Of a stretch of 64,000 nt of DNA, positions 25,168 through 30,206 are shown piece after piece. This DNA comes from Leifsonia shinshuensis (GTDB lineage Bacteria; Actinomycetota; Actinomycetes; Actinomycetales; Microbacteriaceae). Location: the NCBI RefSeq assembly GCF_013410375.1, contig NZ_JACCFL010000001.1:4216001-4280000 (forward strand), written 5' to 3'. Position 1 is the stretch's first letter. Every line of letters begins with the position of its first letter. Below the pieces are notes generated by a model, which saw only the letters and a list, made by a program, of their open reading frames with translations, made no database searches and was not told where the DNA came from. Both the position numbers and the translations under genes were made by a program.

Positions 25168-26508
25168 CTACGAACCGATGCCCGGCGTCGCCCGGAAGGC
25201 ATTCACCGTGCGGTCGAGATCGACCTGGGCGTCGGTTCCGGAATCGAGGATCGTGTTCCCGCTGGAGCTCGGCTCCACGAGGACCGTGACGATGTCGAGG
25301 GGCGCTGTCGCAGCCGTTGCGAGCAGAGCGTCCACCTGCGCGTCGAACGCCGAGTCTCCTGACGTGGACCGGACATCCAGGGCGACCGTGTGGTTGTTCG
25401 CGACGTAGTTTCCGACCCCTTCGGCGAGGCGGATGATGATCGGGGTGGCGCCGCCGGGACGCAGCTTGCGCGAGTCGACGACTTCCGAGAAGTGGTTCCC
25501 GATCACCGAGTTGTTGGCGCCCTCGATGAGCAGCAGTCCGAAGAGGTCGTCGCGTCCGTTGTCCACGTCGATGAACGGAGCCCAGGGTTCGCGGTCGCGA
25601 AGCAGATGGTTGGCGGCGACGAGGTTCTCGGAAGCGTTCTGCTCCAGGATCAGCATGCCCGGGTAGAACGAGTGCAGACGATTGTTCGTCACACTCGACC
25701 TCGTCACGCTCCTGAGGTGCACGCTGCTGGCGCCGCGCGGGAACACGTTGTTCGCCGTGATGAGGAGGCCGCCGTGGTTCTCCGCGAAGATCGAATAGCC
25801 GCGGGGCCCGGCGCCGATCAGGTTGTCCGTCACCTTCGAGGCTTGTCCCCAGCCACGCAACTCGATGCAGTTGCCGCTCTCGGCGATGAAGTTGTCGTGA
25901 ATCGAGAGCGCATCGGCGTTGTAGATGGTGACTGCGTGCTCGAGGTAGACGAAACCCATTCCGTTGAACCGGAAGGAGTCGTTCGCGCTCGCGACGTAGA
26001 TGCCCGTCTTGCCGTTGACGTAGGTGTTCTCGGGGTGGAGGTCCGACCCGTCGGCCCGGAAGTGGAGCCCGTCGATGCAGAAGTTCGAGAACTCCACCGA
26101 GCTGATCCGTGGGCTGCCTGTTCTCTTCACGAGGAAGGCGGCACCGGCGGACTCGTCATGGCCGGCATCCGCCGCGATCTCGACCAGGATGCGGCTGCCG
26201 CCGGGCCAGAGCTCGTGGAGATCCGGCCACTGCTCCTCGGGGACGTTGAACCGGATGCTCGAGGACGTGAAGCCGTGTCCCGAGCCCTCGATACGGAGGA
26301 AGCTGACGTCGATCAGCACCTGCGTGCGAAGGCGGTAGTCCCCCGGCGGGATGTAGATCACCGCCCCGGGCTTGCCGCCGTCCGGATCGACGGAGCCGTT
26401 CTGCCGCTGTCTCACGTCAGCGATGATGCTGTTGATCACCTCGCCGATGTCGTCCTTCGCGTCGCCGAAGGGCCAGGTGGTCACGTCGTATCTCGTGGTG
26501 CTTGGCAT
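25168..26508 (-). CDS. GH91 inulin fructotransferase / difructose-anhydride hydrolase family protein 1
   Basis: 446 residues of right-handed beta-helix with the GH91 signature layout: DIGEVINSIIADVRQ, PGAVIYIPPGDY, SGHGFTSSSIRF, NDSFRFNGMGFVYLEHAV, DNFIAESGNCIEL. The two residues I equate with the catalytic Asp and Glu of the Bacillus enzyme are D199 and E210, 11 apart as in that family. No signal peptide is seen, so it may be the cytoplasmic difructose-anhydride hydrolase rather than a secreted transferase. The start at 26508 matches the second copy's N-terminus; a further 95 upstream codons would run over tatA. It is the last gene of its operon, 44 bp after tatA. Confidence 0.85.
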   Translation of the reverse strand: MPSTTRYDVTTWPFGDAKDDIGEVINSIIADVRQRQNGSVDPDGGKPGAVIYIPPGDYRLRTQVLIDVSFLRIEGSGHGFTSSSIRFNVPEEQWPDLHELWPGGSRILVEIAADAGHDESAGAAFLVKRTGSPRISSVEFSNFCIDGLHFRADGSDLHPENTYVNGKTGIYVASANDSFRFNGMGFVYLEHAVTIYNADALSIHDNFIAESGNCIELRGWGQASKVTDNLIGAGPRGYSIFAENHGGLLITANNVFPRGASSVHLRSVTRSSVTNNRLHSFYPGMLILEQNASENLVAANHLLRDREPWAPFIDVDNGRDDLFGLLLIEGANNSVIGNHFSEVVDSRKLRPGGATPIIIRLAEGVGNYVANNHTVALDVRSTSGDSAFDAQVDALLATAATAPLDIVTVLVEPSSSGNTILDSGTDAQVDLDRTVNAFRATPGIGS

Positions 26509-26552: not shown

Positions 26553-26735
26553 TCACGTGTCGGACTGATTCGGCTTTCGGCTCGGCTCGTCGTGGAGGTC
26601 TCTGGCTTCGCTGCGGAGGATGCGGGCCGACTGGCCGAGCGCTCGTGCGAGCGCCGGCAGCTTCGCGGCTCCGAAGAGGAGGAGCACGACAGCGAGAACG
26701 ATAAGAAGGTGCCAACCGGTCAGGTTCGCGAACAT
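26553..26735 (-). CDS. tatA: TatA-like Sec-independent translocase subunit
   Basis: 60 residues: MFANLTGWHLLIVLAVVLLLFGAAKLP. This is one transmembrane helix followed by the family's FG-x-KLP hinge and an amphipathic helix (ALARALGQSARILRSE), ending in a charged tail. The length is short for TatA (usually 70-90) but all core elements are present. TatA oligomers form the passage for folded proteins carrying a twin-arginine signal. Finding it between two GH91 genes, away from tatBC, suggests a dedicated helper for exporting the fructotransferase. It was too embedded in another frame to be obvious; the ATG is preceded by GAAAGGCCGTCC. Confidence 0.85.
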   Translation of the reverse strand: MFANLTGWHLLIVLAVVLLLFGAAKLPALARALGQSARILRSEARDLHDEPSRKPNQSDT

Positions 26736-26794
26736 GGACGGCCTTTCGTCTGTTCGGAGCGGGTGCGAGGGGGTCCCCCTCGCACCCGCCCAAC

Positions 26795-27997
26795 TTACGG
26801 CGTCGGGCGGAACCCGTAGCTGGTGGAGTTCGCCAGCAGCTGCTGCTGGGTCCCGCTGTCGAAGACGTGCGAGTTGGTCGTACCCGCGTCGAGGACGACC
26901 GTGTGGACGGCGAGGTTGGAGATGACGTGATTCGCGCCGATCAGGTTCTGGTCGCCGTTCTTGATCCGGAAGATCGCGGCGGTGCCGCCGGCCGGCTTCA
27001 CCTGGTCGGGCGGGATGATCAGCGTGACGTGGTTGGAGGTGATGGTGTTGCCGTCGCCGTTGACCTGCACGACCCCGAAGTCGTCGTCCAGTCCGTTTCC
27101 GATACCGATGAACGGGCCGTACGTCTCGACCTGTCGCTCGAAGACGTTCGAGCTGATCAGGTTCTCCTTGCAGTTGCCCTCCAGCGTGATGCTTCCGGGA
27201 TAGAACGACTGGAGGCGGTTGGCGGAGATGTTCGACCGGAACGAGTTCTTGATGTGCACCGAGTCGATTCCGCGCGGGAAGATGTTGTTCCCGGTGATGA
27301 GGAGTCCGTTGCTGTTCTCGGCGAAGATCGAGAAGCCGACCGGGCCGGCGCCCAGGTGATTGCCTTCGATCTTGGTCGCCTGGCTCCCACCGAGGATGAA
27401 GATGCAGGTCCCGCACTCGGCGATGAAGTTGCCGGATACGTCGAGAGCGTCCGGGCCCTGGATCACCAGAGCCTGCTCGAGATACACCATCCCCATCCCG
27501 CGGATCCGCGCCGAATCGTTGTCGGTGCCGAAGCGGATGCCGACCTTTCCGTTGCGGTACGAGTTCTGGTTGCTGCCGAAGGACACACCGTCGAGACAGA
27601 AGTTCTCGAAGGCGACAGCGCTGAGCCGTGGGTTGCCGTTGCGGGCCACGAGGAACGCTTCGGAGGCGCCATCGGTGTTCTCCACCTTGATGTGACTACC
27701 GCCCGGGTTCAGTTCGTGCCAACCGGTGGTGTCGGAGTTGTAGCGGATGGAGAGCGACGTGAACCCGTGGCCGGAGCCTCGGATGGTGAGGAAGCTCACG
27801 TCGACGACGACGCGGGTCTTCAAGGAGTAGGTCCCCGGCGGGATGTAGATCACCGCGCCGGGCTTGTCGGCCGGGTCGGTCTGGCGCATTTTGATGTCGG
27901 CGATGATGCTGTTGATCACCGCACCGATGTCGTACCGCGGGTCGATCGGTTTCCCGGGGGTCTTCCAATCGGTGACGTCATAGACGTTGGATTCCAT
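26795..27997 (-). CDS. GH91 inulin fructotransferase (difructose-anhydride forming) 2
   Basis: 400 residues, the closer match to characterised inulin fructotransferases: YDIGAVINSIIADIK, PGAVIYIPPGTY, SGHGFTSLSIRYN, NFIAECGTC. The presumed catalytic pair is D183 and E194. The CIEL that follows in copy 1 is CIFI here, a substitution next to the active-site strand. The family converts inulin ends to difructose anhydride I or III. Upstream, in the same frame and only one stop codon away, is a 57-residue Tat signal ORF. The annotated ATG has its own GAGAGGA ribosome site, so a leaderless cytoplasmic form is also possible. Confidence 0.87.
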   Translation of the reverse strand: MESNVYDVTDWKTPGKPIDPRYDIGAVINSIIADIKMRQTDPADKPGAVIYIPPGTYSLKTRVVVDVSFLTIRGSGHGFTSLSIRYNSDTTGWHELNPGGSHIKVENTDGASEAFLVARNGNPRLSAVAFENFCLDGVSFGSNQNSYRNGKVGIRFGTDNDSARIRGMGMVYLEQALVIQGPDALDVSGNFIAECGTCIFILGGSQATKIEGNHLGAGPVGFSIFAENSNGLLITGNNIFPRGIDSVHIKNSFRSNISANRLQSFYPGSITLEGNCKENLISSNVFERQVETYGPFIGIGNGLDDDFGVVQVNGDGNTITSNHVTLIIPPDQVKPAGGTAAIFRIKNGDQNLIGANHVISNLAVHTVVLDAGTTNSHVFDSGTQQQLLANSTSYGFRPTP

Positions 27998-28030
27998 CTG
28001 TGTTCCTCTCGTTCGTTCGCAACTTCGCTG

Positions 28031-28204
28031 TTACAGGAGGCCGACAGGGACTCGGCGTCGGGGCGCAGGCCGCTGGGCCTGCTGGGGCGGCGTGGTTTCG
28101 GCGACCGCCGGTTCGGCGCCCAGGTAGCTGAGCGCGGCGAGTACCGCGGCTGTCGCCGCGGTCTGGAGGACGGCGCGGCGGGAGGGCCGCATCTTCTCCG
28201 TCAT
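28031..28204 (-). CDS. 57-residue Tat signal-peptide ORF, in frame with the GH91 gene but ended by TAA
   Basis: Encodes a textbook twin-arginine signal peptide: MTEKMRP, then SRRAVLQ (residues 8-14), a hydrophobic stretch (TAATAAVLAALSYLG) and a cleavage site AVA-ETT at 35. A Pro/Gln/Arg-rich tail follows, then TAA. A ribosome site AAAGGGG lies upstream. The frame is identical to the downstream GH91 gene (the ATGs are 207 bp apart), with one stop and 10 sense codons before the GH91 ATG. It could be a broken secreted GH91 gene, a recoded or readthrough product, or a free-standing microprotein. It begins the GH91-tatA-GH91 operon. Confidence 0.75.
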   Translation of the reverse strand: MTEKMRPSRRAVLQTAATAAVLAALSYLGAEPAVAETTPPQQAQRPAPRRRVPVGLL

Positions 28205-28225
28205 GGGGTTGCCCCTTTCTGCCCA

Positions 28226-28311: not shown

Positions 28312-29229
28312 TCAGCCGGCCGGGGCTGCGGCCGCGGTGAGCTCGCTCAGAACGGGAAGGTCGGCGCCCGGACGGGACACCGTGATCGCCGCGGCGCGTG
28401 CCGCCTTCGCGCCCACTTCCTGCAGCCGGTCCGGCTGGACCGACAGCCCGTCCCAGCCCCCGCCTTCGAAGATGAGCGCCCGGATCAGGGCGGCCATGAA
28501 CGAGTCGCCCGCCCCGACGGTGTCGGCCACGACGGTCGTGACCGGCGGGATCGCGACCCGGCCGTCGCCGCTCGCCAGCAGAGCGCCCTTGCTTCCTCGC
28601 GTGATCCCGGCGACCGCAACTCCGCCGTCGATGAGCAGGTCGAGGACATAGTCGAGGGATCTGCCGGGGAACAGGAACTCCGCGTCTTCGTCGCTCAGTT
28701 TCGTCAGGTGGCTCGAGAGGGCCAGCGCTTCGAACAGTGTGCGCGACCTCTCAGCATCCGGAACGAGTGACGGACGCACGTTCGGATCGAACGTGATGAG
28801 TGCGCCGGCCGCGCGGCCGCGCCTGATGATGTCCCTGGTGAGGTCCGAACCCGGGTCGAGGAACGCACCGAGCGAGCCGGTGTGGATGGCTCTCGGCGCC
28901 CCGAGGTCGTCGAGATTTCGGGGATCCCAGGTCAGCGAGAACTCGTAGGAGGCCGAGCCATCCTCGGCGAGCGTGGCGACCGCTCGGGAGGTCGGCGCCG
29001 CCGTGACCGATTGCGGTGTCAATTCCACCCCCGATCCGCCGAGGTACGCCCGGATCAGGTCGCCGTCGGGGTCGTCGCCGATCGTCGTGTGGAGTCGGGT
29101 GACGACATCGAGCCGGGAGAGCCCGAGGGCGACGTTCGCGGGCGATCCGCCCGGGTGACGGCGTATCCGATTCGGTTCGACGACTTCGTCGATGAGGGCC
29201 TCGCCGACGACGAGCGCGCCCGCGTTCAC
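28312..29229 (-). CDS. PfkB-family fructokinase
   Basis: 305 residues of the ribokinase/PfkB fold. N-terminal GGSPANVALGLSRLD is the sugar-binding signature, and the C-terminal DTVGAGDSFMAAL is the ATP-binding/anion-hole motif with the catalytic Asp. EALIDEV at the start and ITRGSKGA also fit fructokinases. It would phosphorylate fructose released from difructose anhydride. The GTG start overlaps the GH32 stop (GTGA), so the two are translationally coupled. A longer frame upstream runs over the GH32 gene in another phase and was discarded. Confidence 0.85.
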   Translation of the reverse strand: MNAGALVVGEALIDEVVEPNRIRRHPGGSPANVALGLSRLDVVTRLHTTIGDDPDGDLIRAYLGGSGVELTPQSVTAAPTSRAVATLAEDGSASYEFSLTWDPRNLDDLGAPRAIHTGSLGAFLDPGSDLTRDIIRRGRAAGALITFDPNVRPSLVPDAERSRTLFEALALSSHLTKLSDEDAEFLFPGRSLDYVLDLLIDGGVAVAGITRGSKGALLASGDGRVAIPPVTTVVADTVGAGDSFMAALIRALIFEGGGWDGLSVQPDRLQEVGAKAARAAAITVSRPGADLPVLSELTAAAAPAG

Positions 29230-30206
29230 GATGAGACTCGAACGTCGCGGCTTTCGAGCTGGCTTTCCGACCCGACCGACAAGCGACCGTCCACCCAGGC
29301 GACCGGCTGGGGGTCCGTGATCTCGCCGATCCACCCGCCGTTCTCGTCGTCGTTCCTGAACGCCAGGAACTTCCAGCGGCCCGCTCGGTCCTGGATCAGG
29401 CGACCGACGTAGAGCCGCTCGTCGGTGATCCGGTAGGCCTGGGCCGTGTCGAACGGTCCTGCGAGCGTCTCGGCGGGGAACGCCCACACACCTCCGACCG
29501 GATCCTCGGCGAGACGCGAGGAGGCGAGCTCGGACGCGAGGCACGAGAACAGGCCGACCGGCCTCCCATCGACGGCCACCGTCTGCACGACTTCGATGTG
29601 CCCGAAGCCGGCGCCGGGCTCGGAGAGCGGAGGCTGGACCGTCCACGTCGTCAGGTCGGGCGACGTCGCGTGACCGATGACACCGCGGTCGTCCGCGTCG
29701 CCGTGGTTCGCGCGGGCGGTGATCAGCATGTGCCAGCTGTCGTGGTCGCGGAACACCCACGGGTCGCGCCAGGCCTGGTCGGGCCACTCTCTCGTCTCCG
29801 CGGTCTCGTACCAGCGCGGATCGGGTTCGAGCACCTGCCGGCCGGGTTCGCGCCGCCACGTGAAGAGGTCGTCGGACACGACGGAGCTGATGCGCTGGTT
29901 GATGCCGTCCTCGGACCGGCTGACCGCCGTGTAGAACATCCGCCACGATCCGTCGTCGTCGCGCACGACGGACCCGGTCCAGGTCGCAAGGTCGTCGAAG
30001 GCCGGCGAATCGTCGGGGATGACGGCGTCGGCGTGCTCGGTCCAGGTCGTCAGGTCGGTGGAGGTGGCGTGCCCGACGGTGGCGCGCCAGTGGCGGCGGT
30101 CGGGGTCGAGCAGCGCGCGCGAAGCCTTGAGGAAGAACAGGTGGTACCTGTCACCGTCGTCGGCGAGCCAGAAGTCCCATACCCAGGACGAGGCGAGTCG
30201 AAGCAT
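29226..30206 (-). CDS. GH32-type (clan GH-J) beta-fructosidase
   Basis: 326 residues, only the five-bladed propeller, without the usual C-terminal beta-sandwich. Blade-1 motif WVWDFWLADDG carries the expected nucleophile Asp; WRDPWVF is the RDP transition-state motif, and HIEVVQ supplies the acid/base Glu (the EC-motif equivalent). There is no signal peptide, so it is intracellular. It would split imported fructo-oligosaccharides or inulobiose to fructose. It lies between the LacI gene (11-bp gap) and the coupled fructokinase. Confidence 0.82.
   Translation of the reverse strand: MLRLASSWVWDFWLADDGDRYHLFFLKASRALLDPDRRHWRATVGHATSTDLTTWTEHADAVIPDDSPAFDDLATWTGSVVRDDDGSWRMFYTAVSRSEDGINQRISSVVSDDLFTWRREPGRQVLEPDPRWYETAETREWPDQAWRDPWVFRDHDSWHMLITARANHGDADDRGVIGHATSPDLTTWTVQPPLSEPGAGFGHIEVVQTVAVDGRPVGLFSCLASELASSRLAEDPVGGVWAFPAETLAGPFDTAQAYRITDERLYVGRLIQDRAGRWKFLAFRNDDENGGWIGEITDPQPVAWVDGRLSVGSESQLESRDVRVSS

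Follow-up and report, generated by a model that had tools for sequence, protein, structure and literature searches.

Upstream of a GH91 inulin fructotransferase (IFTase) gene in Leifsonia shinshuensis lies a short ORF that encodes a Tat signal, ends in TAA, and shares its frame with the IFTase gene. This arrangement raises the question of whether the two ORFs are one gene or two, and of how the enzyme might leave the cell. The first-pass annotation of the window (the whole 64,000-nucleotide stretch of DNA that was analysed) had offered three readings, namely a suppressed stop codon, a signal acting in trans, and a recent nonsense mutation, and had proposed that a neighbouring tatA gene supplies a dedicated translocase subunit. 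Its description of the locus (a Tat-signal ORF, one in-frame stop, GH91 33 nucleotides on, and tatA after it) agrees with the coordinates and with a match to the NCBIfam model TIGR01409. Of its three readings, comparison with related loci favours the signal in trans and rejects the other two.

The locus in the window

The features of the locus are as follows, in the order in which they would be read on the minus strand.

29226 to 30206, minus strand: GH32 family protein
28312 to 29250, minus strand: PfkB-family sugar kinase (start codon approximate)
28212 to 28218, minus strand: Shine-Dalgarno sequence AAAGGGG of the small ORF (anti-Shine-Dalgarno duplex, -10.0 kcal/mol)
28031 to 28204, minus strand: small ORF, proposed Tat carrier, 57 amino acids and TAA, standalone as judged from its TIGR01409 match and its relatives
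28163 to 28183, minus strand: twin-arginine motif SRRAVLQ of the small ORF
28100 to 28108, minus strand: AVA, predicted signal peptidase site, followed by a Pro/Ala-rich linker
28034 to 28045, minus strand: C-terminal tail VGLL, candidate docking tag
28031 to 28033, minus strand: TAA stop of the small ORF, a genuine gene end, as frame and stop type differ among relatives
28004 to 28010, minus strand: Shine-Dalgarno sequence GAGAGGA of the IFTase gene (duplex, -8.8 kcal/mol)
26795 to 27997, minus strand: GH91 IFTase, 400 amino acids, without signal peptide, proposed cargo
26553 to 26735, minus strand: tatA, linked to the locus in a few Microbacteriaceae only
25168 to 26508, minus strand: second GH91 gene, DFA-IIIase type by best match, predicted intracellular hydrolase, not a cargo, since no carrier precedes such genes

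The small ORF (28204 to 28031) encodes MTEKMRPSRRAVLQ...AVAETTPP...RRRVPVGLL, which scores 19.2 bits against the Tat-signal model TIGR01409 (cut-off 16.7); no Pfam family matches it at E <= 0.01. The GH91 ORF (27997 to 26795) shares its frame, and the 33 nucleotides between the TAA and the GH91 start contain no additional in-frame stop. Alignments with solved IFTases cover nearly the full length of the GH91 protein (2inu, E = 1.1e-135; 9j4i, E = 6.5e-131), which scores higher with 2inu than with 8hsn. Its start corresponds to the start of the enzyme part in relatives with fused signals, and it has no export signal of its own. The nearest protein to the second GH91 (26508 to 25168) is the DFA-IIIase 5zl5 (E = 3.7e-226). 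A gene for a solute-binding protein is also near, as are permease-like ORFs recognised by eye. A search of viral contigs gave no match.

Distribution of the small ORF among GH91 loci

A search with the enzyme recovered 2808 proteins; among the best 120, which were examined, most start near the enzyme domain and ten have a signal-like extension. For the analysis of loci we used the best 80 of 314 matches, which represent 77 distinct loci. When the upstream regions of these 77 loci were read without any motif requirement, small Tat-like ORFs were found before most signal-less IFTases, and every locus with such ORFs had one that ends alike. Although this C-terminal tail acted as a filter in the scripted scan that gave the counts below, it had first been noticed in the unfiltered reading.

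Within the best 80 of 314 matches, the scan found a tail-bearing Tat ORF at most 250 nucleotides upstream of 40 of the 43 signal-less IFTases. None of the nine IFTases with a fused signal (seven flagged by the script, and L074 and L075 recognised by eye) is preceded by such an ORF, nor is any of the 25 genes assigned to the DFA-IIIase type by best hit. Small ORF and fused signal are thus mutually exclusive in the loci examined. Small Tat-like ORFs with the tail occurred in 5 of 6405 background windows; on rescanning, one of these five proved to be the ORF before the first of the tandem IFTases in L038, and the other four, nearly identical to one another, are fragments of a single unrelated ORF. 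With the tail requirement removed, the counts were 40 of 43 for signal-less IFTases (the same loci), 1 of 9 for fused signals, 1 of 25 for DFA-IIIase-type genes and 380 of 6405 for the background.

The three misses among the 43 differ in kind. In L038 the IFTase is the second of two tandem copies and the ORF precedes the first; in L070 the small ORF contains unread bases and its ends look right, so that this locus is scored as a miss in the count yet labelled "split" in the enzyme tree; and for L073 the 260 nucleotides available show neither a signal nor a carrier. In a by-eye reading of thirteen loci, 11 showed the ORF (four of them already in the 77-locus set), one a fused signal, and one (L117) neither. 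On an Arthrobacter plasmid the end of the ORF, with its tail, is present, and two IFTase-like genes on Agrobacterium plasmids (L121 and L122) show neither a carrier ORF nor a signal in the 330 nucleotides read. Because L117, the two Agrobacterium loci and perhaps L073 have neither, a signal-less enzyme is not always accompanied by a carrier.

Some of these loci have features of their own. L117 encodes a distant GH91 (34% identity) without a fused signal or a recognisable upstream carrier. In L121 and L122 the IFTase-like gene adjoins a second gene of the same kind and genes for a sugar ABC transporter. Tandem IFTases occur in L038, a Subtercola MAG, where a carrier was found upstream of the first copy but not of the second, and also in L067, where the carrier again precedes the first copy.

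The separate ORF with its constant end is found in several families of Actinomycetota. In samples of genomes from the taxa around the window, counted with its own genome included, matches were found in 4 of 394 genomes of the class, 11 of 297 of the order and 2 of 396 of the phylum. The comparison of orthologous loci that the first-pass annotation had proposed shows the ORF kept separate in all eight rows of the window's own clade, and uninterrupted frames in other clades. Where both proteins could be compared (41 loci), carrier and enzyme identities correlate (r = 0.74), and none of 2000 permutations gave a correlation as high, so the two genes appear to be conserved as a pair. IFTases 92% identical to that of the window occur, both accompanied by a carrier, in L031 and L032, whose records bear the names Arthrobacter sp. 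SDTb3-6 and Microbacterium mangrovi. The pair may have been transferred horizontally, or a record may be mislabelled.

A small protein with a constant end

It is near certain that the small ORF encodes a conserved, separate protein. Among 41 aligned sequences the only invariant columns are R9 and R10 of the twin-arginine motif and G55, the third residue from the end, and little is common to the proteins beyond these arginines and a C-terminal tail of the form [ILV]-G-[VLM]-[LI]-stop. In a wider set of 88 (the 41 aligned, 39 database homologs and 8 more; 43 are non-redundant), all 88 end alike, with Gly at position -3 and Leu, Ile, Val or Met at positions -1, -2 and -4; the 39 database homologs are not an independent test of the tail, because they were recovered by a profile of these same ORFs. 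In 86 of the 88 the hydrophobic core is succeeded by a small-residue-x-Ala site, and Ala, Pro, Gly, Thr and Ser make up 70% of the stretch before the tail in the non-redundant 43. Ratios of dN/dS in three close pairs (0.24, 0.37 and 0.30) indicate that the ORF is under purifying selection there. Starts were set by hand for six loci (L045, L049, L052, L053, L063 and L092).

The profile search gave 56 matches. The 39 that were kept for the tail count comprise 37 with E < 1e-3, together with P0158 and P0159, and the 17 weak matches that were dropped (E from 0.7 to 8.7) are Tat-like proteins without the tail. The 37 homologs are 52 to 77 amino acids long and have no precomputed Pfam domain. Their source names, where seen, are "hypothetical protein" or "uncharacterized", and one apparently refers only to a twin-arginine signal. 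The literature that we surveyed, mainly as abstracts and passages and with few subscription journals, yielded no description of the small ORF, and no paper that treats GH91, a signal peptide and Tat together.

We propose that this protein, in which a predicted Tat signal peptide would be followed by a linker rich in Pro and Ala and by a C-terminal tail that ends in Gly-Leu-Leu, probably binds the adjoining signal-less IFTase and carries it through the Tat system in trans. Export of the enzyme by the small protein is likely; what most strongly suggests that this protein stands in for a signal peptide is the absence of the ORF from all nine fused-signal loci. In the cytoplasm the tail would dock on the folded enzyme, the signal would engage TatBC, and the complex would cross by Tat. 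Signal peptidase would then cut the carrier at AVA, and the enzyme would arrive outside with an uncut N-terminus. There it would convert inulin to a difructose anhydride; the cell may take up this sugar and open it with the intracellular DFA-IIIase-type enzyme that the cluster also encodes.

A role for the tail as the docking tag on the enzyme is a good guess. With somewhat less assurance than for export itself, we favour the more specific view that the small protein is a detachable signal peptide, in which a stand-alone Tat signal bears, as its sole additional function, a five-residue C-terminal tag that grips the folded beta-helix enzyme, and that Actinomycetota thereby export it without a covalent signal. 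The tail is absent from the linker of all 10 fused proteins tested, which include one without a twin arginine (P0098) in which only residues 22 to 48 were tested. From sequence comparison of the enzymes no docking site emerged: eight weak positions separate split from fused enzymes, of which four are common to most hydrolases, and the comparison is confounded by descent. When the window pair was modelled as one chain in two AlphaFold runs, the tail stayed unplaced (pLDDT < 50), a result that counts as weak because these are single-chain models with few paired rows. The DFA-III-forming IFTase of Bacillus is a trimer. A 2011 review calls the IFTase of A. globiformis S14-3 a monomer (PMC5448860).

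The small protein could instead be an exported peptide that does a job of its own outside, for example to regulate or stabilise the enzyme, without driving export. The Tat signal and the predicted cleavage site fit this explanation, and cleavage would free a short peptide with a constant end. However, it leaves unexplained both the exit of the signal-less enzyme and the absence of the ORF from the fused-signal loci. Moreover, Tat exports folded cargo, and it would be unusual for it to take a short peptide by itself. We therefore regard this explanation as unlikely. An arrangement in which the pair is exported by Tat and an uncleaved signal then holds the enzyme on the membrane, so that the small protein is carrier and anchor in one, appears quite improbable; a non-covalent tail would suit a tether, but cleavage sites are predicted in nearly all of the small proteins, and the S14-3 enzyme was reported from culture supernatant (PMC5448860).

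Export in trans, as proposed here, looks like Tat hitchhiking with an unusually small carrier, and we know of no smaller natural Tat carrier. It can be compared with MelC1 and MelC2 of Streptomyces, where the role of MelC1 involves copper, whereas GH91, to our knowledge, needs no cofactor. MelC2 leaves the cell by hitchhiking on Tat-signal-bearing MelC1 (PMC2758597); there, as here, a bicistronic actinobacterial operon places the Tat signal on one protein while a signal-less extracellular enzyme hitchhikes. MelC1 is a helper protein of a tyrosinase, whereas the carrier here has about 20 to 30 residues after the signal, a short tail and, in the window copy, no Pfam domain. In the E. coli systems HybO/HybC and PaoA/PaoB/PaoC, too, partners that lack a signal cross Tat together with one that bears it (PMC4273604, PMC10924467). 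Their carrier, however, is a subunit of the mature enzyme, and here it would be little more than a signal peptide and a tag. The DFA-III-forming IFTases of Arthrobacter H65-7 and C11-1 belong to the same enzyme family and have the same type of reaction, but their signal, of 32 or 40 residues, is part of the enzyme chain itself (PMC5448860); the window IFTase has none.

The pair offers a candidate answer to an old puzzle: no signal peptide is encoded in the gene for the DFA-I-forming enzyme of A. globiformis S14-3, although this enzyme was found in the culture supernatant (PMC5448860). Streptomyces davawensis is also cited as having an extracellular GH91 DFA-I enzyme (PMC8605356). The DFA-IIIase of A. 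aurescens has no signal (PMC4640833), which agrees with the finding here that no carrier precedes DFA-IIIase-type genes. If the proposal is correct, a signal and a short tail suffice for Tat hitchhiking, without a folded partner subunit, other "leaderless" secreted enzymes may have overlooked carriers, and secretion predictors would miss enzymes exported in this way. The tail could also serve biotechnology as a portable export tag.

Translation of the two ORFs, descent of the enzyme, and tatA

Most likely the cell makes two separate proteins. Shine-Dalgarno pairing of at least 4 kcal/mol was predicted for 37 of 40 small ORFs and 39 of 40 enzyme genes, as against 31% of 1040 random positions. 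The frame of the carrier relative to the enzyme is 0 in 9 loci, 1 in 12 and 2 in 19, and the nine in-frame loci use TAA (2), TGA (5) or TAG (2) as the stop, with a second stop present in two of them. It is from these separate ribosome-binding sites, and from the varying frames and stops, that we take the production of two proteins to be most likely. By this comparison, the shared frame in the window is a matter of chance. The distance from the carrier stop to the enzyme, taken to the aligned enzyme start and not to a proven start codon, is 14 to 214 nucleotides in the 40 loci, with a median of 49.

This proximity, directly upstream of the enzyme, would also be expected of a leader ORF that controls enzyme synthesis by translational coupling, and in L007, whose gene is that of L034, the enzyme ORF could begin further upstream at a GTG and overlap the carrier stop, so coupled translation is possible in some species. 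As a general explanation, however, a leader ORF is very improbable, given the spread of the gap, the use of all three frames, the enzyme's own Shine-Dalgarno site in nearly every locus, and the selection on amino acids that keeps the twin arginines and the G-x-L end. Programmed readthrough to a single Tat-IFTase polypeptide, which the window taken by itself would allow with one frame and one stop, has next to no chance of being correct, because frame, spacing and all three types of stop codon vary among relatives, second stops occur, most of the small ORFs and enzyme genes have their own Shine-Dalgarno site, and the frame that a recoded gene would conserve across the stop is shared in only 9 of 40 loci. 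Similarly negligible is a recent nonsense mutation that cut a fused gene: fused versions do occur in other clades, but a separate ORF with the constant end precedes 40 of 43 signal-less IFTases (best 80 of 314 matches), in several families and throughout the window's own clade.

Fused signals occur in two clades of the enzyme tree, one that includes relatives of solved DFA-III formers and one of Streptosporangiaceae. The latter is placed among carrier-bearing Micromonosporaceae, with supports of 84 to 94. On this tree (78 rows, quick method) the split and fused states need at least three changes; its starred branches would still allow a single origin of the fused state. L077, a fused member of the first clade, is nearest to solved DFA-III formers (9j4i), and in the best 80 of 314 matches the fused-clade relatives of these formers lack the small ORF, unlike the window locus. 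Carrier-bearing L108 is nearest to 8hsn, a solved DFA-I former from Streptomyces peucetius. The exchange between separate and fused signals inside one enzyme family amounts to a natural experiment.

The TatA encoded in the window (26735 to 26553, minus strand) matches PF02416 with 56 bits (cut-off 21), and the genome has three TatA-family genes. By phmmer, tatA was found within the fetched flanks of 1 of the 77 loci (best 80 of 314 matches), that of the Leifsonia MAG L037, and by PF02416 in the locus of 3 of 32 distinct other genomes. Linkage to an IFTase recurs in a same-genus genome (G226), in L037, and in Galbitalea soli (G042), where tatA is about 9 kb from the IFTase gene. In the locus of 29 of the 32 genomes tatA was not recognised, contigs having been matched to the locus for part of the genomes. 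The dedicated translocase subunit of the first-pass annotation therefore holds as a linkage in the window and in these three relatives, and a conserved dedicated TatA was rejected, as the linkage is limited to a few Microbacteriaceae loci. tatA fits a Tat-dependent locus and is not a defining part of it, the linkage being local and not conserved. A second extra tatA lies outside the window (C1:4164605, in L001) and is followed by a TatB-like ORF.
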